The position numbers were made by a program, and so were the translations under genes. The notes beneath the pieces were generated by a model. The model was not told the DNA's origin. It searched no databases and worked only from the letters and a program-made list of their open reading frames with translations. Below, in pieces: positions 6,371 through 56,526 of a stretch of 56,526 nt of DNA; within the stretch, counting starts at the first letter, position 1; each line of letters opens with the position of its first letter. Source of the DNA: Arcticibacter svalbardensis MN12-7 (GTDB lineage: Bacteria > Bacteroidota > Bacteroidia > Sphingobacteriales > Sphingobacteriaceae); the NCBI RefSeq assembly GCF_000403135.1, contig NZ_AQPN01000106.1:1-56526 (forward strand), in the 5' to 3' direction.

Positions 6371-7069
6371 TTGAAGGATTTTTATTTATTTATAGATACT
6401 GAAACGTCTGGGTTGCCTAAAAAATGGGATAAACCTTACTCGAAGATAGGCAACTGGCCTTATATTGTCCAGGTATCCTGGGTGGTATATACTAAAGATG
6501 GCCATGAAGTAATGCGCAAAGATCATTTTATAAGTGATGATGACTTTGTGACCTCTTCTGCGTCTTTTAAGATACATGGCTTCTCGGACGAGTACCGTAA
6601 GAAAAATGGTCAGCTGAGGAAAGAGGTAATGACTGATCTTTCTTCAGATCTGATGACTTATCAGCCAATGATCGTGGGGCATTTCACAGAACTGGATCTC
6701 CATATGATTGGATCAGACTTTTATCGCGCACATGTAAAGAATCCGGCACCGGATTTACCTGCATTTTGCACCATGATGGCGACAGTAAAACTGGTTAAAA
6801 ATCCTAGAGCTAGTTTTTTAAGATTAGGTGAGCTGAATGAAACACTCTTCAATAAAAGTCTTGAAAACCCTCATAATGCCTTAGCCGATTCAATAGCAAC
6901 GGCTAATTGCTTTTTTGAATTACAAAAAAGAGGACTGATTAATGATGAAATAATTGCATCACAGGAGGCTGGCTTGAATAAGGTGAAGTTGAATTCTAAA
7001 CGATTTGCTTTTGTATTACCAGTTCTAATTGTATTTATTATTACCATACTAATATCTTTCCTTATATGA
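6371..7069 (+). CDS. DnaQ-like 3'-5' exonuclease with C-terminal membrane anchor
   Basis: A 232-aa DEDDh-type exonuclease. Exo I is FIDTETSGLP (residues about 7-16, catalytic D and E), exo II is around VGHFTELDLHMIG (Asp), and exo III is HNALADSIAT (His and Asp). The final 21 or so residues (FVLPVLIVFIITILISFLI) form one transmembrane helix, so the catalytic domain would be held on the cytoplasmic face of the inner membrane, which is unusual for this fold. The start is TTG at 6371; no ATG is available before exo I. It overlaps the next gene by 4 bp. A DUF294-protein and exonuclease pair is a recurrent neighbourhood in many bacteria; its function is not known. Confidence 0.82.
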   Translation: MKDFYLFIDTETSGLPKKWDKPYSKIGNWPYIVQVSWVVYTKDGHEVMRKDHFISDDDFVTSSASFKIHGFSDEYRKKNGQLRKEVMTDLSSDLMTYQPMIVGHFTELDLHMIGSDFYRAHVKNPAPDLPAFCTMMATVKLVKNPRASFLRLGELNETLFNKSLENPHNALADSIATANCFFELQKRGLINDEIIASQEAGLNKVKLNSKRFAFVLPVLIVFIITILISFLI

Positions 7070-46212: not shown

Positions 46213-46327
46213 AAGTTTATATCTGCCTTAGCTTTAATAAAGCTATAATAGAATGAGACAAAAGGACACTATTGACTTTTTGAACCATATTGTTAATATA
46301 TTCGTATAAGTAACATGATCTGTATAC

Positions 46328-49300
46328 GTGAAAAAACACCCGGTTCCCTATAATGAGCAAGAAAGACTTAATGCACTCCAGAATTATGAGATTCTTGATT
46401 CATTAAGCGAAGAAGAATTTGACAGGGTAACAGAGTTGGCCTCTATAATATGTGATGTTCCCGTTTCATTGATTTCATTAATTGATAAACACCGGCAATG
46501 GTTCAAATCAAAGGTGGGTTTAAATATTACTGAAACTCCAAGGGATCTTGCTTTTTGTCAATATGCAATTATGGACGTAGGGATCTTTGAGATTGAAGAT
46601 GCCACAAAAGATCAGCGATTCATGGAAAATGAGCTGGTCACGGGTTTCCCGAACATTCGTTTTTATGCTGGTCAGCCTTTAATTGATCCTAATGGTTACG
46701 CGCTGGGAACCTTATGCGTCATAGATCATGAGCCCAAGAAACTTTCTGATACTCAAAAAAGAGCATTGCAATTACTGGCGCAAAATGTCATTACGCTTAT
46801 TGTAGAAAGACGACAAAAAATTGAACTTAAAAACTTTCAAAAGCTGTTTCATCTTTCTAATGATTTAATTTGCATTGCAAGTGTAGACGGTTTTTTCAAG
46901 AAAGTTAATCCTGCCTTTGAAAAAGTAATGGGGTGGAATGCCAATTTATTAATGAACACCTCTATTTTTGATTTGATACATACAGATGATATAGAAAATA
47001 CGAAACACGAAATAGAACGGTTAATACAAGGACACGATACCATAAACTTCATTCATCGCCTTAAAACAAAAGAAAATTGCTATAAAACTTTACAATGGGC
47101 AATCAGTCCTGAACCTTTAACCGGTAACCTTTTTGCAATTGCGCGTGACATTACCCTGGAAAGATCGAAAGAATTAGCGCTGATTCAAAGTGAAAAAAAA
47201 GCCAATGCCTTTTTTGATAATTCACAAGGATTTATGTGTACACATGATTTAAAAGGAAATTTTTTATCGGTTAACAGTGCGGGAGCATCAATATTAGGAT
47301 ATACCCAGGAGGAGATCTTAAAAAGCGGTTTATTTGACATTATTCCTGTAACGCGTCACGCATTTTTGCAAAATTACCTGGCAGAAATAGAACAAGAAGG
47401 AAGTTCAAAGGGTCAAATGGTTACTCAACATAAAGATAAATCTTTTCGAATCTGGATGTACAATAATATACTGGAAAAGAATCTGAATGGCGAGAGTTAT
47501 GTGATTGGGAATGCAGTAGATATCACAGAAAGACATTACCTGGAAGAAGACCTTCGACATACTAAAGATATGCTGGAACAAACCAACAAAGTAGCACGTG
47601 TAGGTGGCTGGGAAATGAATGTTCAAAGTCAAAAAATTTCATGGACTTCAGTAACCCGTGAGATACATGGTGCTGATCCAGGTTTTGAACCTGATCTGAC
47701 TAGCGGCATCAGTTTCTACAAAGAAGGAAAGAGCAGGGATGACATAACAAAAGCAGTAAACGAGGCTATAACAGAGGGAAAATCATGGGACCTCGAACTT
47801 CAAATCATTACTGTACAAGGAAAAGAAATATGGGTTAGAGCTTTAGGCGATGCCGAAATAGAAAATGGCACTTGCAAAAGAATCTATGGCACTTTTCAGG
47901 ATATTAATCTTAGCAAACTCATTGAACTTGATTTAATGAATGAAAAGGCCCGCCTATCTGCATTTGTACAACATGCACCCGCAGCGGTAGCCATGTTGGA
48001 CAATAAGATGTGCTATATCGCAGTAAGTAACCGTTGGTTGGAAGATGCCAATGCAGTTGGCCAGAATATTATCGGCACCTCTCATTATGACTTAGCGCTG
48101 GGTATGACAGATGAAAGAAGAGAAAGGCATAAACGCGTATTAAATGGGGCAATAGAAAAAAAGGAAGAAGATACTATTTCACTTGTTGGCGTAGCGGAAA
48201 ATCAATATATCACCTGGGAAATGAGGCCCTGGTATCAATATAATGGTCAAATTGGTGGCATGATGATATTTACCCAAAATATAACATCAATCATCAGGCA
48301 AAGGGAAGAACTTAAAGTTGCCAAGCTATTGGCAGAGCAAGCAAGTGTAGCCAAGTCTGAGTTTTTGGCCAATATGAGCCATGAGATCCGAACTCCTCTA
48401 AATGGAGTGATCGGTTTCACTGACTTAGTGCTGAAGACCAATTTAAATGAAACACAGCAGCAATATTTGTCAATTGTAAATCAATCTGCAAACGCCTTAT
48501 TAAGTATCATCAATGACATTCTTGATTTCTCTAAAATAGAGGCCGGTAAATTGGAACTGGATATTGAAAAATGCGACTTATATGAAATGAGCTGTCAGGC
48601 TACTGATATTATTTCTTATCAAGTGCAAAAAAAGGGTTTAGAAATGTTGCTTAATATATCACCTGATTTGCCTCGTTTTATCTATGCCGACACCATGCGG
48701 TTGAAACAAATTCTAATTAACCTTTTAGGTAATGCATCGAAGTTTACCGATAAAGGTGAAATTGAATTGAAAATAGAAACCTTAATTGCACAAGCAAATC
48801 AGACCATGATACGGTTTGAAGTACGGGATACAGGTATTGGTATTAAACCCGAAAAGCAAAGTAAAATATTTGAAGCATTTTCTCAAGAGGATGGATCTAC
48901 GACAAAGAAATATGGAGGTACAGGACTTGGGTTAACGATATCAAACAAATTATTAGGGTTAATGAATAGTCGGCTTCAAATAAAAAGCTCGCCAGGGAAG
49001 GGGAGTATATTTTATTTTGATGTGAGTTTTAAATCTGAACAAGGTGATGCCATAAACTGGGAAAACATCGACCAGATAAAACAAGTATTGGTTGTTGATG
49101 ACAATGACAATAACCGATTGATCATCAGTCAAATGTTGTTATTAAAGAACATTCGAACTACGGAAGCCAGGAATGGCTTTGAAGCCCTGCAACTCCTTTC
49201 AAAGGGGGGAAAGTATGATGTAATTTTAATGGATTATCATATGCCATTTATGGATGGATTGGAAACGATCAAAAAGATTCATGATAGTTTCCATACTTCC

Positions 49301-50257
49301 CCTACAGAGCAATCAATAATCCTCTTGCATAGTTCGTCAGATGACGGAAAGATTATTAAAGCTTGTGAAGGGCTCCAAGTGAGTCACCGCCTGGTTAAGC
49401 CAGTCAAAATGCAGGACATCTATAATGCATTGTCACGGCTCCATAAAAAGGAAATTAAAATAACTCCTGTTAAGGACCAGTTAGCTGAGATATCAGAGCA
49501 CTATTTCAATGTGTTAATTGCAGAGGACAATATGGTAAATATGCTACTTACTCGAACTATCATTCATAAATTTGCCCCTAATGCTATTATTACCGAGGCT
49601 AATAATGGAATAGAAGCCTTGAATATTTTTAGGCGAAACACCCCTGACCTGATTCTAATGGATGTTCAAATGCCTGAAATGAATGGCTATGAAGCGACAA
49701 AAGCAATCAGATTAATCGAAAATGGGATTCATACACCAATTGTTGCTTTAACTGCAGGAAATGTTAAAGGAGAAAAGGAGAAATGTCTGGCGGCTGGTAT
49801 GGACGATTTTGTTGTAAAGCCTATTGTGGAAGAGATGCTTATTGCTGTATTTAACAAGTGGTTGAAAAATACCCATCAAATAGGTAATAAACCTAAGCTG
49901 GAAGAAGATATAGATGAAGCTTTACATTTTAACATCAATAAACTCATTAGCTATGTTGGCGATGATGAATCGATATTAAAAGAAGTACTATCTCTGGTTA
50001 AGGAAGAACTGATCGTTTCAATACAAGTGATGGAGAAGTGTATACATGCAAAAGATCTGAAAGGCATTAATGAAGCAGGGCATAAACTCTATGGAACGGC
50101 AGTATCATCTGGTTTGAATGCGCTCTCAAAAATAGCAAATGAGTTTGAGCATCTTGATACTTTTTCCTTGCCTGATTTACAGATCCTGGTAACCAAAGCA
50201 CAGGATGAGATTAAAATAGTGTTAAAACTGGTCAATAAATTTTACCACAATAAATAG
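46328..50257 (+). CDS. Hybrid sensor histidine kinase, GAF-PASx4-HisKA-HATPase-REC-REC-HPt
   Basis: A 1309-aa cytoplasmic phosphorelay protein without membrane segments. Order: GAF domain (about 20-160), four PAS/PAC modules (about 165-285, 290-400, 415-530, 540-650), HisKA with phospho-acceptor His685 in MSHEIRTPLNG, HATPase (about 785-900; NLLGNASKFTDKGE and DTGIGI, GTGLGL boxes), receiver 1 with Asp969 in VILMDYHMPFMDG, receiver 2 with Asp1112 in LILMDVQMPEMNG, and an HPt domain with His1252 in GHKLYGTA. The start is GTG at 46328 (MKKHPVPYNEQERL). All phosphotransfer residues are intact, so a full internal His-Asp-His relay is possible. Divergent from the Crp/Fnr gene, 156 bp apart. Confidence 0.93.
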   Translation: MKKHPVPYNEQERLNALQNYEILDSLSEEEFDRVTELASIICDVPVSLISLIDKHRQWFKSKVGLNITETPRDLAFCQYAIMDVGIFEIEDATKDQRFMENELVTGFPNIRFYAGQPLIDPNGYALGTLCVIDHEPKKLSDTQKRALQLLAQNVITLIVERRQKIELKNFQKLFHLSNDLICIASVDGFFKKVNPAFEKVMGWNANLLMNTSIFDLIHTDDIENTKHEIERLIQGHDTINFIHRLKTKENCYKTLQWAISPEPLTGNLFAIARDITLERSKELALIQSEKKANAFFDNSQGFMCTHDLKGNFLSVNSAGASILGYTQEEILKSGLFDIIPVTRHAFLQNYLAEIEQEGSSKGQMVTQHKDKSFRIWMYNNILEKNLNGESYVIGNAVDITERHYLEEDLRHTKDMLEQTNKVARVGGWEMNVQSQKISWTSVTREIHGADPGFEPDLTSGISFYKEGKSRDDITKAVNEAITEGKSWDLELQIITVQGKEIWVRALGDAEIENGTCKRIYGTFQDINLSKLIELDLMNEKARLSAFVQHAPAAVAMLDNKMCYIAVSNRWLEDANAVGQNIIGTSHYDLALGMTDERRERHKRVLNGAIEKKEEDTISLVGVAENQYITWEMRPWYQYNGQIGGMMIFTQNITSIIRQREELKVAKLLAEQASVAKSEFLANMSHEIRTPLNGVIGFTDLVLKTNLNETQQQYLSIVNQSANALLSIINDILDFSKIEAGKLELDIEKCDLYEMSCQATDIISYQVQKKGLEMLLNISPDLPRFIYADTMRLKQILINLLGNASKFTDKGEIELKIETLIAQANQTMIRFEVRDTGIGIKPEKQSKIFEAFSQEDGSTTKKYGGTGLGLTISNKLLGLMNSRLQIKSSPGKGSIFYFDVSFKSEQGDAINWENIDQIKQVLVVDDNDNNRLIISQMLLLKNIRTTEARNGFEALQLLSKGGKYDVILMDYHMPFMDGLETIKKIHDSFHTSPTEQSIILLHSSSDDGKIIKACEGLQVSHRLVKPVKMQDIYNALSRLHKKEIKITPVKDQLAEISEHYFNVLIAEDNMVNMLLTRTIIHKFAPNAIITEANNGIEALNIFRRNTPDLILMDVQMPEMNGYEATKAIRLIENGIHTPIVALTAGNVKGEKEKCLAAGMDDFVVKPIVEEMLIAVFNKWLKNTHQIGNKPKLEEDIDEALHFNINKLISYVGDDESILKEVLSLVKEELIVSIQVMEKCIHAKDLKGINEAGHKLYGTAVSSGLNALSKIANEFEHLDTFSLPDLQILVTKAQDEIKIVLKLVNKFYHNK

Positions 50258-50326
50258 GTATGCTGGCCGGGTTGATATTTATTCCTATATTAAAAAACTA
50301 AATATTTTCAATATTTACTAAATTAT

Positions 50327-50334
50327 TATCTTTA
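50327..50334 (+). promoter_or_regulatory. -7-like element TATCTTTA of the thi operon
   Basis: One mismatch from TAnnTTTG. The riboswitch P1 stem begins 5-6 nt later, the same offset as at rnpB. Confidence 0.5.
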
Positions 50335-50338
50335 TCAC

Positions 50339-50417
50339 GGCTTTAGGGGTATTCTGATATAGAATTGAGATAGTCCCTTTGAACCTGATGCGGCTCATAC
50401 CGTCGAAGGGAAAAGCG
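50339..50417 (+). promoter_or_regulatory. TPP riboswitch (THI element)
   Basis: Thiamine pyrophosphate-sensing leader. The conserved parts are present in order: GGGGT, the P3 arm, TTGAGAT, CCCTTTGAACCTGATGCGG and CTCATACCGTCGAAGGGAA. P1 pairs GCTTT (50340-50344) with AAAGC (50412-50416). It precedes thiM by 69 nt; that interval includes an inverted TCTGATCCGGAGA but no clear terminator, so control may be at translation. Confidence 0.95.
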
Positions 50418-50485
50418 TAGCAATACACTTTATTCAACTCTGATCCGGAGACTCTTTAGCCCTATTTTATCAATAAATTAAAAAT

Positions 50486-51292
50486 ATGGAAAAATCGCTT
50501 TGGAAATCAATCCTATCTGTTAGGACGGATGCTCCTTTAATACATAATATCACCAATTATGTGGTGATGAACAATACCGCTAATGCTTTGCTTGCTATTG
50601 GTGCCTCTCCAATTATGGCACATGCACATCCTGAAGTAGAGGAGATGGTGAATATTTCAAATGCTTTGGTCATTAATATTGGCACACTGGATGAATATTG
50701 GTGCGAGAGCATGGATCGTGCTGCAAAAAAAGCGAATGAACTTCATAAATCATGGATCCTTGACCCTGTAGGTGCCGGTGCAACGCTATTTAGGGATCAG
50801 ACGGTGATCAATCTGATCAACTATAAACCAACAGTGATAAGAGGTAATGCCTCTGAAATTATGGCTATAGCCAAAGTGAGTCGACTACATACAAAAGGTG
50901 TCGATAGTGTATATCAAAGTGAGGAAGCAATTGAAGCGGCACAATGGCTGAATAGCAGCACGGGTAGCATTATCTGTGTATCAGGGGCTGTTGATGTGAT
51001 CATTTCAAGAAAACAAAAAGCATTTATACGAAACGGGCACCCGATGATGCAACAGGTTACCGGATTAGGCTGCACAGCCACTGCAATAATTGCGGCCTTC
51101 TTGGGCAACGATGCGAGTGATCCATTTCATGCCACAGTCTCGGCTATGTGTTTATTGGGCATTGCAGGTGAAATTGCACAGAAAAACTCCAATGGTCCCG
51201 GTAGCTTACAGATGAACTTACTGGATAAATTATATAACCTAACTGAGCAAGAGTTCTCCAGCTACCTTAAAATAGATTTTCAAAATGATTGA
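50486..51292 (+). CDS. thiM: Hydroxyethylthiazole kinase
   Basis: A 268-aa kinase that phosphorylates salvaged hydroxyethylthiazole. Family segments: PLIHNITNYVVMNNTANALLAIGASPIMAHA in part (HNITNYVVMN, GASPIMAHA), DPVGAGAT and the active-site region VTGLGCTATAI with the conserved Cys. It is the first gene after the TPP riboswitch and overlaps thiE by 8 bp. Confidence 0.95.
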   Translation: MEKSLWKSILSVRTDAPLIHNITNYVVMNNTANALLAIGASPIMAHAHPEVEEMVNISNALVINIGTLDEYWCESMDRAAKKANELHKSWILDPVGAGATLFRDQTVINLINYKPTVIRGNASEIMAIAKVSRLHTKGVDSVYQSEEAIEAAQWLNSSTGSIICVSGAVDVIISRKQKAFIRNGHPMMQQVTGLGCTATAIIAAFLGNDASDPFHATVSAMCLLGIAGEIAQKNSNGPGSLQMNLLDKLYNLTEQEFSSYLKIDFQND

Positions 51293-51920
51293 GTGTTTTT
51301 CAAGTCGTTTGTACCTGGTTGTATCTGAGGATGCCTGCATGGGAAGAGATTTGGTATTGGTTACTGAAATGGCTGTTAAAGGAGGTGTAGACCTTGTTCA
51401 GATCAGGGAAAAACACAAAGACTTTGCTGCCTTTCAATCCGTCACATTGCGTTTAAAAGAAATGCTCGATCACTATGGGGTTCCTTTAATTGTTAATGAC
51501 AATTTAGCTGTTGCACGATCCTGCTGTGTTTCAGGGATCCATGTTGGCAATTCAGATATGCTGCCTGCTGACATTAAAAAGCTATGGCATAATGATGTCT
51601 TATTGGGTTATTCGATCGAATATGAAGAACAGCTATTCAATTCACAAATTCAACATACTGATTATTTAGGCGTCAGCCCTGTGTTCAATACCCTAACTAA
51701 GAATGATACGGTGACAGCATGGGGACTGGATGGCATCTCGAAGATTAGAAGCCTCACTGACAAACCACTGGTTGCAATTGGAAATATACATGCAGAAAAT
51801 ACTTATGATGTGATACGGGCAGGTGCAGATTGCCTGGCGGTAGTATCAGCTATTTGCGGAGCAGAAAATCCGGAGCAAGCCGCAGCGGAAATAAGAAATC
51901 AAATTGAAAAGGCAATATGA
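51285..51920 (+). CDS. thiE: Thiamine-phosphate synthase
   Basis: A 211-aa TIM-barrel enzyme joining the pyrimidine diphosphate and thiazole phosphate. Visible motifs: GGVDLVQIREKHKDF, VPLIVNDNLAVA, GIHVGNSDM (family usually HxGQxD, so Gln is Asn here), DYLGVSPVFNTLTK and PLVAIGNIHAENTYDVIRAGADCLAVVSAI in part. Overlaps thiM by 8 bp and thiD by 4 bp. Confidence 0.94.
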   Translation: MIECFSSRLYLVVSEDACMGRDLVLVTEMAVKGGVDLVQIREKHKDFAAFQSVTLRLKEMLDHYGVPLIVNDNLAVARSCCVSGIHVGNSDMLPADIKKLWHNDVLLGYSIEYEEQLFNSQIQHTDYLGVSPVFNTLTKNDTVTAWGLDGISKIRSLTDKPLVAIGNIHAENTYDVIRAGADCLAVVSAICGAENPEQAAAEIRNQIEKAI

Positions 51921-52753
51921 CTACAAAGTATAAATATACCACTGTATTAACTATTGCAGGTTCGGATAGCGGGGGAGGTGCAGGCATACAAGCCGATTTA
52001 AAAACCTTTTCCGCTTTGGGCTGCTATGGCATGTCGGCTATAACTGCCTTAACTGCACAAAACACCTGTGGTGTCAGGGCAATCCATGCTATTCCTCCTG
52101 CATTTGTACAATCTCAGATACAAGCCGTAATGGAGGATATATTACCGGATGCTATAAAAATAGGTATGGTACATACGACAGCACTCGTAGATGTAATTGC
52201 AAAAATCTTACAACAATACCCTAAAATCCCTGTCGTATTTGATCCTGTTATGGTAGCCAGTAGTGGCGACAGGCTAATTGAAGAAGATACTATACAATCG
52301 ATCATTAAAAAGTTATTTCCGCTTGCCACTTTGATCACACCCAACCTGGACGAGGCCTCCTTACTGACTGCTTTACGCATTGAAACCCTTGAACAGATGT
52401 ATGAAGCGGGTTCTGAAATTATGAGAATGGGGTGTAATGCCCTGCTGCTAAAAGGCGGGCACCTGCAATCAGCCCAGCTCAGTTCCATATTATTCAGGCG
52501 AAATGCTGAGATAGGAGTTTATATGTCAGAAAAAATAGATTCCAATAATACGCATGGTTCTGGATGTACGCTATCATCAGCCATAGCTTGTTATTTGGCT
52601 GAAGGGATTGAGCTAACGGATGCTATTACACTGGCTCAGGATTATGTGCATAACGCCATTTTTTACGGGAAGGATGTAATTACAGGCAAGGGCCATGGCC
52701 CATTAAACCATTTTTATAATCCATATAAACTGACACAACATGAACTGGACTGA
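51917..52753 (+). CDS. thiD: Hydroxymethylpyrimidine / phosphomethylpyrimidine kinase
   Basis: A 278-aa ribokinase-like kinase adding two phosphates to the thiamine pyrimidine. It has TIAGSDSGGGAGIQADLKTF at the N-terminus, LITPNLDEASLL, LLKGGHL and the active-site NTHGSGCTLSSAIA. It overlaps thiE by 4 bp and tenA by 14 bp, indicating tight coupling within the riboswitch-controlled operon. Confidence 0.95.
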   Translation: MTTKYKYTTVLTIAGSDSGGGAGIQADLKTFSALGCYGMSAITALTAQNTCGVRAIHAIPPAFVQSQIQAVMEDILPDAIKIGMVHTTALVDVIAKILQQYPKIPVVFDPVMVASSGDRLIEEDTIQSIIKKLFPLATLITPNLDEASLLTALRIETLEQMYEAGSEIMRMGCNALLLKGGHLQSAQLSSILFRRNAEIGVYMSEKIDSNNTHGSGCTLSSAIACYLAEGIELTDAITLAQDYVHNAIFYGKDVITGKGHGPLNHFYNPYKLTQHELD

Positions 52754-53396
52754 CAAAGCCTGGGAAAAGGCAAACCCCATATATGAAAAAATCATCGGTA
52801 TGCCCTTTGTTAAAGAGCTACTGAAAGGCACACTGGATCCTGAAAAGTTTAAGTTTTATATTGAGCAGGATTCCCGTTACCTGGAGTACTTTGCAAGGGC
52901 CTTATCCATCATTGCCGCAAAAACTGAGGATGTAAACATCATGCTTGATTTTATTCGCTTTGCCGAAGGAGCTATTGTGGTTGAAAGATCTTTGCATGAT
53001 TCGTACTTTAAACAGTATGAGGTAAAGGGGCAGATTAGTATGTCGCCTACCTGTCACCATTATGTCCACTTTTTGCAGAGTACTGTATATATGTCACAAT
53101 CTTCCGTAGGAATTGCTGCTGTACTACCTTGCTTTTGGGTATATAAAAAAGTAGGGGATTATATACTTTCGAATCAAAACGCGGATAACAATCAATACCA
53201 GAACTGGATTGATACCTATGCAGGCGAGGAGTTCGGTTTACTGGTTAAAAAGGCCATTTCAATTTGTGATAAAGCAGCGGCAAGTAGTACTGTAGAGCAA
53301 CAGGAAAGCATGACTGAAGTTTTTCTTACTGCCTGCAAGTTGGAATATAATTTTTGGGACAGCGCATATTTACTTGAAAGATGGAATAGTGATTGA
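52740..53396 (+). CDS. tenA: Aminopyrimidine aminohydrolase, TenA family
   Basis: A 218-aa all-helical enzyme that salvages base-degraded thiamine by hydrolysing aminopyrimidine. Family features: FKFYIEQDSRYLEYFARAL near the N-terminus, SPTCHHYVHFL, AVLPCFWVYKKVGDYI with the catalytic Cys, and CKLEYNFWDSAY with the conserved Glu. It is the last gene of thiM-thiE-thiD-tenA. The operon is a salvage set: thiC, thiG, thiS and thiH are not here. Confidence 0.93.
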   Translation: MNWTDKAWEKANPIYEKIIGMPFVKELLKGTLDPEKFKFYIEQDSRYLEYFARALSIIAAKTEDVNIMLDFIRFAEGAIVVERSLHDSYFKQYEVKGQISMSPTCHHYVHFLQSTVYMSQSSVGIAAVLPCFWVYKKVGDYILSNQNADNNQYQNWIDTYAGEEFGLLVKKAISICDKAAASSTVEQQESMTEVFLTACKLEYNFWDSAYLLERWNSD

Positions 53397-53537: not shown

Positions 53538-54761
53538 ATGAAGAGGGTTTTATTGAAAGCCATCAATCCTTTAAGGATTTTAATTAATGATACCCGTTTT
53601 ATAGGTTTAATGCTAATTACGTGTACCTTAATCTCCATTTACCTGGCTAACACTGTCATGTTTGCTTCTGATTATAAGCAGCTCTGGAATCGATCCTTTC
53701 CTATATTTTCTTCATTATCCCTCCCAGAAAGCTTTTTAAGCTGGATTAATAATTTTCTGATGGCATTCTTCTTTCTGATGGCTGGAATGGAAATCAAAAG
53801 AGAACTAATCAAAGGTGAATTATCCTCCTTTAAAAAAGCTGTTTTACCATTTGGTGCAGCCTTAGGGGGAATGATTGTTCCTGCTTTAATATTCGTTGCT
53901 TTTAACATTCATACCAGTTACATCCATGGATGGGGGATACCTACTGCTACGGATATAGCATTTTCTATTGGAATAGCCTCTTTATTGGGTAAACGCATTC
54001 CTGATGGCCTTAAAATATTATTAATGGCTTTAGCAATTATTGATGATTTGGGTGCAATAATTGTAATTGCCCTATTCTATGGGGGACAGGTGAATTGGCT
54101 ATTTCTAGTTGTTGGTGTTATTTTTTTCCTGGGTCTTTTTGCCTTAAATTACTTCAAGGTTAAATTTGGACTCATACAAATTGCAATGTCACTTTTCTTA
54201 TGGTATGTTGTATTTAATTCGGGTATTGAGGCCAGCATCACAGGTGTATTGGTCGCATTCGCTATTCCAGCTACTAAACTACCTAAAATTGTAAGAGCCA
54301 TTCACCGTTATGTTAATTTTTTAATTATTCCTTTATTTGCATTGGCCAATACTGCTATATTATTGCCAGACCATATTATGAGTGCTTTAGGTACCACAGT
54401 AGGATTAGGAATCATCGTTGGGTTAGTATTAGGAAAACCTATAGGCATTTACTTATTTAGCTGGATATTAGTCAGATGCAAAGTAGCTAGTTTACCCAAA
54501 AACGTAAATTGGAAGCAGATATTTGGAATGGGAACATTAGCTGGTATCGGTTTTACCATGTCTATATTCACTACTATGCTAGCCTTTAAAGATGAGGCTA
54601 TTCGGGATATTGCTAAAGTATCCATCCTTGCCGGCGTTGCAATATCCTTAGTATTCAGTTTAAGCTATTTCCTATTGATTAGTAAACATAAAAAGCAACA
54701 TGCGAAATTAGATCATAAGTCATCAAAATCGGAAGGTAAGCTAGAACTGGATGTAAGATAA
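53538..54761 (+). CDS. nhaA: Na+/H+ antiporter NhaA
   Basis: A 407-aa inner-membrane antiporter exchanging Na+ for H+. About twelve helices. The functional core is visible: ATDIAFSIGIASLLGKRIPDG and the paired aspartates in LAIIDDLGAIIVIALFYGG, with the NhaA signature GMEIKRELIKGEL and LGKPIGIYLFSW. The start at 53538 is 14 bp after the tenA terminator; I see no good -7 match. It converges on the hydrogenase-related operon 10 bp away, a possible functional pairing because such complexes carry antiporter-like subunits. Confidence 0.95.
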   Translation: MKRVLLKAINPLRILINDTRFIGLMLITCTLISIYLANTVMFASDYKQLWNRSFPIFSSLSLPESFLSWINNFLMAFFFLMAGMEIKRELIKGELSSFKKAVLPFGAALGGMIVPALIFVAFNIHTSYIHGWGIPTATDIAFSIGIASLLGKRIPDGLKILLMALAIIDDLGAIIVIALFYGGQVNWLFLVVGVIFFLGLFALNYFKVKFGLIQIAMSLFLWYVVFNSGIEASITGVLVAFAIPATKLPKIVRAIHRYVNFLIIPLFALANTAILLPDHIMSALGTTVGLGIIVGLVLGKPIGIYLFSWILVRCKVASLPKNVNWKQIFGMGTLAGIGFTMSIFTTMLAFKDEAIRDIAKVSILAGVAISLVFSLSYFLLISKHKKQHAKLDHKSSKSEGKLELDVR

Positions 54762-54771
54762 GAGATTGCGA

Positions 54772-55521
54772 CTATCGTTTTCTGATGAGCTCTAACAAGC
54801 CATTGATAAAGGAAAGCGGGTGTATCGGGTTTCCAGGAATGTATAAATCAATAGGATAGAGGTCGAGAAAGCTTCGGTTAACAGCGTCGCTATGGTTAAA
54901 CATACCACCGCTTATTGCATCCGTTCCTGCCAAAATAATGATTTTAGGGTCGGGGATTGCCTCATAACATAGCTTAAGAGAGGCAGCCATATTTTCAGTA
55001 ACCGGACCAGTAATTACAATTCCATCAGCATGTCTGGGTGATGCTACAAACTCAATACCAAAGCGACTCATATCAAAATTCACATTTGATGCTGCATTTA
55101 ACTCCAGTTCGCAACTATTATCACCTCCTGCACATACCTGCCGTAATTTTAAAGACCCTTTAAAATAAGTAGAAATTTCTTTACGGATTAACTCCGCATG
55201 AAGAAGTATAGGTTGATCTTCACTTTCTTTTATGATAAGAGCATTCCTATCATTTGTAGCCATTTTATAATCGTTGCTGAACTTAATTTTCTCAGGACAG
55301 GCAATCGCGCACTGCCCGCAAAAAACACATTTCCCTAAGTCTATACTAAAGGGCATATTGCTAATAGCTCCCGTAGGACATAGATTTATCAAATGCTGTT
55401 CATCGACCTGCAGTTTAGAAATGAGGGGACGCCCACGAAATGTATCTGAGATGACCACCTTGGTTACATCCGGAATATATTGTTTACCCTGATGGAATAA
55501 TATTTTTAAATGATCAATCAT
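54772..55521 (-). CDS. Fused ferredoxin / hydrogenase-like small subunit (Ehr- or complex I-related) lacking proximal cluster ligands
   Basis: A 249-aa protein corresponding to HycF/HyfH plus HycG/HyfI in one chain. Residues 45-80 form a ferredoxin region with one intact set of cluster ligands, CVFCGQCAIACP (C65, C68, C71, C75), and a remnant CPTGAI (C48). Residues 125-245 match the NuoB/HycG fold: FGIEFVASPRHADGIVITGPVTENM is the family's core. Of the four ligands of the proximal [4Fe-4S] cluster only C137 (in DNSCELE) remains; the other positions are D134, D201 (GTDAISGG) and N231 (IPGNP). It follows the large-subunit gene by 36 bp. Confidence 0.85.
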   Translation of the reverse strand: MIDHLKILFHQGKQYIPDVTKVVISDTFRGRPLISKLQVDEQHLINLCPTGAISNMPFSIDLGKCVFCGQCAIACPEKIKFSNDYKMATNDRNALIIKESEDQPILLHAELIRKEISTYFKGSLKLRQVCAGGDNSCELELNAASNVNFDMSRFGIEFVASPRHADGIVITGPVTENMAASLKLCYEAIPDPKIIILAGTDAISGGMFNHSDAVNRSFLDLYPIDLYIPGNPIHPLSFINGLLELIRKR

Positions 55522-55557
55522 AATCAGTTCAATAAAATTTGATTCAGCTGCATCATA

Positions 55558-56526
55558 TTATAAATCATGTCCGCTGTAACTTAAATTAAAGCTTTTATTA
55601 CAAATCGGAAAGTCAGAGATCTCATTATTCCTTACGGATAAAGCTACTGCAAGCCAGTTATGAAATGAAGGGTCTTTAATCTTATAATGCAAAAGATCGC
55701 CATTATCATCAGTAACCGCACAATGACAGATTTCACCACGCCAGCCTTCAACCAATGAAATAGTAAATGTATTTGCTGCAGGCAGAGGCAATGCAGTGGG
55801 TTGCTTTTCTTGTTCAGGAATATTTTTCAACCATTCCCGAATGTATTTGATAGATTGTATAATTTCCTCTTTACGGATTTGAATGCGAGATGACACATCC
55901 CCATGATTCTTAATGACCGGCTCATGCGATATACCTGCATATAAACCAAATGGATGAGAGCTACGCAAATCACGAGAGAGTCCGGAAGCCCTTGCTGCCA
56001 TTCCCACCAGTCCTATTCTATGCGCTTGTTTTTGAGTAATTACTCCGGTTTTTTCTAAACGTGCAAGCACAGTAGGAAGACTTTTCATTTCTTTATACAT
56101 CTCCATAAAATCAGGCTCGTAAGCATCTAGAAGCTGTGTTAATTCATTTGCCAGAGCCGTAGTAAAGGGAAAATTACTTTCTCCAACACGAATTAAACCT
56201 TTAGACAAACGACTTCCACACCAATGCTGCATAAAGTTAATAATAGGGGTACGTAAGCGGCCATAAACCGCACCGCCTAACTGATAAGCGATATCGGTAC
56301 AAACAGCGCTTAGATCGCCTGTATGCATCGCTAAACGCTCCAGTTCCAGAGCCAGTGTTCTTTCGTAAATCAATTTATCTCCCGGATGAAAGCCAATAAG
56401 ACTTTCCCAAAGCTGTACAAAAGCAGTAGTATGCCCAACTACGTTATCACCTGCTATCGATTCAGCTAATATATTTCGTTGCAGTAGTTTTTTACTGCTT
56501 ACAAAAAGGTTTTCCATACCACGATG
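55558..56526 (-). CDS. Hydrogenase-like large subunit (Ehr / NuoD-related), 5' end outside the window
   Basis: At least 322 residues of the large subunit of a group 4 [NiFe]-hydrogenase-like or complex I-like enzyme. The frame runs off the right edge as H-R-G-M-E, matching the conserved HRGxE segment, so the Met at 56517 is internal. HycE-type core segments are clear: ELERLAMHTGDL, QKQAHRIGLVGMAARASGL, GDVSSRIQIRKEEI, GWRGEICHCAVTD and DPSFHNWLAVAL. Both Ni-Fe ligand pairs are lost: the L1 motif is AGDNVVGH instead of CGxCxxxH, and the C-terminal motif is KSFNLSYSG instead of RSFDPCxxC. It would act as an energy-converting, non-hydrogenase complex; membrane subunits should lie to the right. 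Confidence 0.85.
   Translation of the reverse strand, partial: HRGMENLFVSSKKLLQRNILAESIAGDNVVGHTTAFVQLWESLIGFHPGDKLIYERTLALELERLAMHTGDLSAVCTDIAYQLGGAVYGRLRTPIINFMQHWCGSRLSKGLIRVGESNFPFTTALANELTQLLDAYEPDFMEMYKEMKSLPTVLARLEKTGVITQKQAHRIGLVGMAARASGLSRDLRSSHPFGLYAGISHEPVIKNHGDVSSRIQIRKEEIIQSIKYIREWLKNIPEQEKQPTALPLPAANTFTISLVEGWRGEICHCAVTDDNGDLLHYKIKDPSFHNWLAVALSVRNNEISDFPICNKSFNLSYSGHDL

Follow-up and report, generated by a model that had tools for sequence, protein, structure and literature searches.

An Ehr-type complex with Asp/x/Asp/Asn at the proximal iron–sulfur site and a retained Ni-Fe-less cavity

Aligned subunits show that an operon of Arcticibacter svalbardensis MN12-7 encodes an Ehr-type (energy-converting hydrogenase-related) complex belonging to a subtype whose ligands for the proximal [4Fe-4S] cluster (N2) are replaced by Asp/x/Asp/Asn and whose cavity, proton, and channel residues are retained. 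The operon reaches into the right end of the window, the whole stretch of 56,526 nucleotides analyzed here. Its Ehr-type identity, proposed in an earlier note on this DNA, holds: The large subunit has no Ni-Fe cysteines, and the membrane subunits are antiporter-like and NuoH-like. It has long been asked how complex I and its relatives turn redox chemistry into ion pumping, and sister complexes that carry either four cysteines (CCCC) or Asp/x/Asp/Asn (D/x/D/N) at the proximal site, with cavity residues otherwise equal, allow redox and pump to be separated. We refer to the D/x/D/N complexes as the D clade and to near relatives that share this fusion and order of genes, found by whole-genome profile searches, as the C clade.

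Operon layout, sampled relatives, and neighborhood

The window starts at base 1 of contig C106, one of 149 in the assembly, and extends to the end of that contig, where locus L098 also stops. Its last 1.75 kb encode, on the minus strand, a ferredoxin/NuoB fusion and part of a HycE/NuoD-like large subunit. The former is a complete HyfI-like small subunit of 249 aa (54772..55521), with an N-terminal one-cluster ferredoxin domain and a NuoB/HycG-like domain. The latter is the C-terminal 322 of the 501 aa of a HyfG/HycE/NuoD-like protein (55558..56526), truncated at the contig end. The missing 179 aa lie at positions 6824–7360 of contig C37 (7360 bp, locus L097), whose end abuts the window end when both are mapped on Arcticibacter eurypsychrophilus (locus L017; positions 10000/10001).

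The operon comprises six genes, hyfB-C-E-F-G-I-like, and the window's right end falls inside it. Product lengths are 666 aa (HyfB-like), 306 (HyfC-like), 475 (HyfF-like), 501 (HyfG-like), and 249 (HyfI-like); the HyfE-like product is 209 aa in L017 and frameshifted in the window's genome. There, a 1-base deletion within a run of eight A, either a sequencing error or a real frameshift, breaks the gene (L097 4760–5388, on C37), and the L017 copy is intact. Five L017 products pass their Pfam cut-offs (HyfB and HyfF, PF00361; HyfC, PF00146; HyfG, PF00346; HyfI, PF01058), and HyfE matches PF00420 below cut-off. Among the NCBIfam matches listed for the operon proteins, none reaches its curated cut-off, the NuoB and NuoD models scoring below theirs. 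The HyfB/HyfC/HyfE/HyfF-like membrane genes that had been expected to the right of the window are present in L097/L017. The operon contains no NADH module genes and no formate dehydrogenase gene.

A scan of a genome collection returned 498 relatives, of which the best 80 were kept as loci: mostly Bacteroidota MAGs, together with cultured Arcticibacter and Flavihumibacter, one Ignavibacteriaceae, and one Spirochaetia MAG. In these best 80 of 498, several of them short, antiporter-like ORFs occur in 76, HyfE-like in 70, and HyfC-like in 69. Two HyfB-like subunits are encoded in 51 of the 62 D-clade loci with scorable HyfB and HyfC, and one each in L017 and L097. A later whole-genome profile search matched 47 genomes, 30 of which were taken as loci. 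The final set holds 122 rows, 90 from the D clade and 32 from the C clade. The window's own rows (L001, L016, L098; HyfG cut) are outside this set, and L017 stands in for them. Also left out were shorter loci of genomes present as longer loci, the NuoB/NuoD loci of the window's own genome, second copies of L017 and L029 (L128, L129, L140, L141), and rows with ≤200 aligned HyfI or ≤380 aligned HyfG residues. Two loci in which no HyfG was found, L183 (CCCC) and L185 (DADN, partial), were omitted, four rows of neither clade were set aside (L110, L142–L144), and near-copies such as L034/L146 stay in.

The gene nhaA (window 53538–54761) lies between the Ehr operon and thiamine genes, and the earlier note had linked it to the complex. 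This link is not borne out and is rejected, because the closest relative, L017, has no nhaA between matching flanks: The window blocks on its two sides, 46277–53386 and 54772–56526, lie ~20 bases apart there. Beside the thiamine genes, window 46328–50257 holds a 1309-aa ORF with sensor, histidine-kinase, and receiver domains apparent by eye; L017 has a similar ORF.

No widely common non-operon flank gene was found in the available flanks of the 80 loci, many of which are shortened by contig ends, so that a distant partner could escape. The commonest such gene, a Crp-family regulator, is present in 13 of the 80 loci and lies far from the operon in some of these. It is divergent and upstream of the operon in L044, L062, L020, L060, L022, L048, L082, and L071 (377–2297, minus strand), and no Fnr-type N-terminal cysteine cluster is apparent by eye in those regulators.

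A second intact NuoB-like subunit in the operon had been named as an observation that would overturn the reading of the site; none was found. Small-subunit ORFs number 75 in 75 of the 80 loci, with no second NuoB-like gene beside the operon, and a second small subunit there is rejected on that count. The single small-subunit ORF of L067 lies ~8 kb off on the opposite strand. The window's genome encodes two further NuoB genes, of complex I type with the tandem-Cys motif, on other contigs. Two further NuoD-like genes accompany these tandem-Cys NuoB genes across contigs C127, C64, C41, and C21 of this genome, a pattern that suggests two sets of complex I in addition to the Ehr-type complex.

Replaced ligands and the retained cavity

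The small subunit keeps one of the four proximal cysteines. In phmmer alignments to MbhJ and HycG, D134 (55120..55122), C137 (55111..55113), D201 (54919..54921), and N231 (54829..54831), all on the minus strand, fall in the four proximal-cluster cysteine columns in that order, which confirms the first reading of this site from the sequence. Asp134 is present in 90/90 rows; position 201 is Asp in 87, Glu in 2, and unreadable in 1 (acidic in 89/89 readable rows); Asn231 is present in 89/90 and is Tyr in one. The sole remaining cysteine, C137, occurs in 82/90 rows and is replaced in the other eight (three Ala, two Asn, one Tyr, one Gly, and Ser in L181). Counts were similar in the first set of 75 rows, the window and 74 loci from the best 80 of 498 relatives (D134 in 75, C137 in 72, N231 in 74; position 201 Asp in 72, Glu in 2, and one unreadable). 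Judged by these alignments, Cys137 is dispensable, and a cluster held at the site by Asp/Asn ligands is unlikely because of its loss in 8/90 rows. Catalysis on a proximal cluster as in the sulfane reductase MBS is likewise rejected for the D clade, the ligands being gone. The site had been called dismantled: The usual proximal relay is missing, but the word misleads, as conservation of the new residues almost equals that of the former ligands. The HyfI monomer model (pLDDT 82.6) agrees with the assignment of the fold, residues 113–249 matching HycG best (7z0t_G; Z 13.3, 2.0 Å over 134 residues), with complex I chains within 1 Z.

One cluster site of the ferredoxin domain survives, with ligands other than those first assigned. 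The medial (N6b-like) [4Fe-4S] site spans residues 48–71 (55309..55380, minus strand), with ligands C48 (55378–55380), C65 (55327–55329), C68 (55318–55320), and C71 (55309–55311). All four are present in 75/75 rows of the first set and, in the clade comparison, in 76/76 D-clade and 30/30 C-clade rows. The CxxCxxCxxxCP reading had used C75, which is present in the window's protein and is Phe in 67/75 rows; for this reason C48 is taken as the fourth ligand. All three outer ferredoxin cysteines (C38, C44, and C75) are present in 18/30 C-clade rows; in the D clade, C44 is absent from 76/76 rows and C75 from 74/76. Of up to three relay sites, the D clade therefore seems to have retained just the middle one.

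The large subunit has lost all four Ni-Fe cysteines, as first noted, and its alignment bears out a place among the Ehr-type relatives of HycE/HyfG. Its L1 region reads AGDNVVGH (residues 204–211; 56431..56454, minus strand) where Escherichia coli HycE reads CGICGFAH. Its L2 region, KSFNLSYSG (residues 490–498; 55570..55596, minus strand), lies, in the context NKSFNLSYSG, opposite the HycE DPC..C site. In the HMMER alignment, A204/N207 and S495/G498 occupy the positions of HycE C241/C244 and C531/C534. HycE numbers were derived manually by subtracting 12 from the chain index, the offset being inferred from the match of E156 to Glu193 in PMC9474812. Other cysteines aligning at the ligand positions would have spoken against the loss, and none did so.

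The Ni-Fe-less cavity and, largely, its proton-path residues are shown by the aligned rows to be conserved across both clades. Eight HyfG residues are invariant in the D clade (90/90) and the C clade (32/32): S495 and G498, which stand in place of the L2 cysteines, and D206, K490, Y496, D500, H151, and R442. Nearly so are E156 (90/90 and 31/32), H247 (89/90 and 32/32), E400 (88/90 and 32/32), and R358 (80 Arg and 10 Lys in the D clade; 32/32). Residues E156/R442/H247/E400/R358 are the counterparts of HycE E193/R478/H284/E437/R395, which belong to proton-transfer routes proposed for formate hydrogenlyase (FHL) in PMC9474812. Three positions speak against a full match: Ile replaces the second loop acid (D192) in 122/122 rows, Ile/Val/Met mostly stand in for the canopy Ser, and at canopy Asp529 the D clade has Asn in 63/90 and Asp in 22/90 rows. 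In the HyfG monomer model (pLDDT 76.1), residues 128–180 and 472–501 are among those below 50.

The replacement residues themselves could form a binding site. Two carboxylates and one amide, near-invariant, stand where four cysteines converge in relatives, and such an Asp/Asp/Asn pocket might bind a single metal ion (Mg, Ca, Zn, or Fe) in a structural or catalytic role. HyfG R285 (122/122) and K288 (90/90) align with the RFHHNYIR stretch of Nqo4, whose His lies near N2. Hydrogen-bond or salt-bridge roles, with R285 and K288 as partners, would explain the conservation equally well, and the Tyr at position 231 in one row also counts against a metal ion, which we regard as very improbable.

Origin of the replacement and its bearing on coupling

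The C clade carries CCCC at the proximal site in 32/32 rows, yet its large subunits are equally Ni-Fe-less; three distant Ehr-like loci (L142–L144) likewise combine CCCC with a Ni-Fe-less L2. Among these, L144 (G308 C117) is an operon on a long branch whose ferredoxin-region cysteines are unalignable. A further locus, L145 (G267 C40, 2996–10721), holds a rearranged HyfB/HyfG/HyfI/HyfC-like set with a stop codon inside the small-subunit profile match.

Phylogenies place the replacement on one branch. In a FastTree phylogeny of HyfG and HyfI without the site columns, the 76 D/x/D/N rows form one clade (SH-like 99). With IQ-TREE, 31 D/x/D/N rows group at bootstrap/SH-aLRT 100/98, the site columns and C255, C446, and C448 being excluded, and the CCCC pair L132/L148 is the sister of the D clade (fork 100/100). 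No intermediates between CCCC and D/x/D/N were seen among the rows examined. The trees thus show Asp/x/Asp/Asn replacing the proximal ligands on one branch; as far as the sampled rows tell, the change is a fixed, single-origin replacement, a point absent from the earlier note. Its distribution is patchy, given the counts in profile searches: 15 D-type and 1 CCCC in 395 genomes of the window's class (E 1e-50 or better), 2 D-type and 8 CCCC in 296 genomes of the phylum (E 1e-90 or better), and one of five other genomes of the genus (E 1e-30).

Relative to L017, dN/dS is 0.109 for HyfI, 0.097 for the available part of HyfG, 0.028 for HyfF, 0.038 for HyfC, and 0.106 for HyfB; on these estimates (0.03–0.11) the five genes are under purifying selection. 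The membrane arm retains the antiporter Glu/Lys set and the E-channel acids of the NuoH-like subunit, including HyfB K221, K252, and K349 in 113/113 rows and HyfF E124, K210, and K328 in 67/67. A decaying remnant or a sequencing artefact, to which the HyfE deletion and the contig break dividing the operon might point, is scarcely credible against an identical site in many separate genomes at low dN/dS. For the site itself, decay or a pseudogene is rejected, since the replacement residues are conserved across those genomes and dN/dS is low.

The proximal site did not change alone. Residues of the D clade that are lacking in the sister pair L132/L148 are D134, D201, N231, N90, and A213 in HyfI and C255, C446, Q175, and L142 in HyfG. 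The large subunit gained Cys255 and Cys446 with the proximal-site change, which the earlier note likewise does not mention. Cys255 (56299..56301, minus strand) is present in 90/90 D-clade and 0/32 C-clade rows; C446 (55726–55728) and C448 (55720–55722), together spanning 55720..55728 on the minus strand behind canopy Arg442, are present in 89/90 and 86/90 D-clade rows and in 0 and 4 of 32 C-clade rows. The sister pair has N,N at position 255 and V,A at 446. A relay moved to a new metal or Fe–S center in the large subunit, on C164, C255, C446, and C448, could account for this gain, and the tetrad is complete in 74/76 D-clade and 0/30 C-clade rows. A relocated metal site is a possible reading, weakened by four exceptions among the 90 rows: L069 and L075 (A448; CCCA), L182 (S448; CCCS), and L181 (V446, S448; CCVS). 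Because these break the tetrad, it is not obligatory. C164 also occurs in 31/32 C-clade rows, C41 is already present in L132, and three cysteines (41, 255, and 446) among the 26 listed clade-specific HyfG positions are only mildly unusual (binomial 0.015). We consider a relocated center quite improbable.

Our preferred reading, held tentatively at somewhat short of even chances, is that the complex may be an ion-translocating machine whose cavity would switch by protonation or a change in conformation, with the medial cluster as a sensor or docking site. No Fe–S cluster would lie between the cavity and the medial ferredoxin-type cluster, and the usual relay would therefore not serve the cavity. 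In FHL, clusters are <14 Å apart for efficient transfer, according to PMC9474812, and omission of N2 should push the spacing to >14 Å. Where N2 used to be, two carboxylates and an amide would line a polar pocket able to take up protons or bind cations. What happens in the cavity (protonation, ligand binding, or loop movement) would be coupled without N2 to a membrane arm moving H+ and/or Na+. For ferredoxin, the medial cluster would serve in docking, in sensing, or as a structural element, and it would not be one step of a chain. Held more loosely, as a conjecture clearly below even chances, is the further claim that a machine with complete soluble and pumping arms may run without electron delivery to the cavity, the switch needing neither Ni-Fe, nor a quinone-feeding N2, nor any proximal cluster.

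Two features speak against the preferred reading. The medial ligands are strictly kept in the 76 D-clade rows, and a pure antiporter would have no need of them; and Cys255/Cys446/Cys448 of HyfG might constitute a rebuilt redox center. The strict conservation of the medial ligands also favors a complex that is still a redox pump, in which loss of N2 would have opened a polar cavity and a diffusible acceptor would be reduced directly beside the medial N6b-like cluster, driving the pump. Retention of the cavity proton-donor residues fits this alternative, as does the example of MBS, also without Ni-Fe ligands, which does its chemistry at the cluster beside the chamber (PMC7684303). Nevertheless, residues around the old Ni-Fe/quinone site are identical to those of cluster-bearing Ehr complexes, for which reason the reaction site looks unmoved, and no quinone or substrate site was identified. 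We judge a redox pump of this kind unlikely, if worth serious consideration.

The competing readings differ in what they imply. Ions moved without a relay, as in the preferred ion-translocating machine, would make redox catalysis at that site unnecessary for coupling, and a complex without electron delivery would amount to a natural experiment in which ion coupling and electron transfer are taken apart. Should electrons arrive all the same, there must be a new relay, for which the gained cysteines are a concrete candidate.

Comparison with known systems

Ehr complexes without Ni-Fe ligands are already known (PMC6349859, PMC10284858, PMC10432482, and PMC7304191), and HydDB lists them separately, as homologues without H2 metabolism (PMC5037454). 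The complex described here shares with them a group 4-like character, antiporter-like subunits, and a large subunit without Ni-Fe cysteines. It differs in the proximal site: The Ehr-like relatives examined (32 near and 3 distant rows) have four proximal cysteines, whereas the D clade has D/x/D/N. Proximal [4Fe-4S] ligands in the small subunit are in this comparison a criterion drawn from these Ehr-like rows rather than from the published Ehr definition. In trees built from the relatives found here, the complex groups with Ni-Fe-less ones. We found no description of an N2-less Ehr in the open-access literature searched, most subscription papers being beyond its scope. The complex is best regarded as an N2-less form of Ehr.

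Relative to the group 4 [NiFe] hydrogenases, the four L1/L2 cysteines are missing. The best solved relative is E. coli formate hydrogenlyase HycE/HycG (7z0s/7z0t), for the large subunit by sequence and for the small by fold, MbhJ being nearer than HycG to the small subunit by sequence. Unlike FHL, the complex has no Ni-Fe ligands, no proximal cluster ligands, and no formate dehydrogenase gene. Pyrococcus furiosus MBS (6u8y) is a complex-I-superfamily member that has also lost its Ni-Fe ligands and altered its proximal ligand set, to three cysteines; MBS, however, retains the proximal cluster as proposed catalyst, whereas the D clade has at most one Cys at the site (MBS as described in PMC7684303). 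With respiratory complex I, the shared features are the NuoB/NuoD folds and the NuoH-like and antiporter-like subunits; the differences are the missing N2 ligands (tandem CC in NuoB), the absence of NADH module genes, and a single medial cluster. Mrp Na+/H+ antiporters, whose membrane subunits are homologous, operate with no redox arm. PMC7684303 also notes that this arm is missing from Mrp, whereas in the complex described here the soluble arm is complete and strongly conserved, and a NuoH-like subunit is present.
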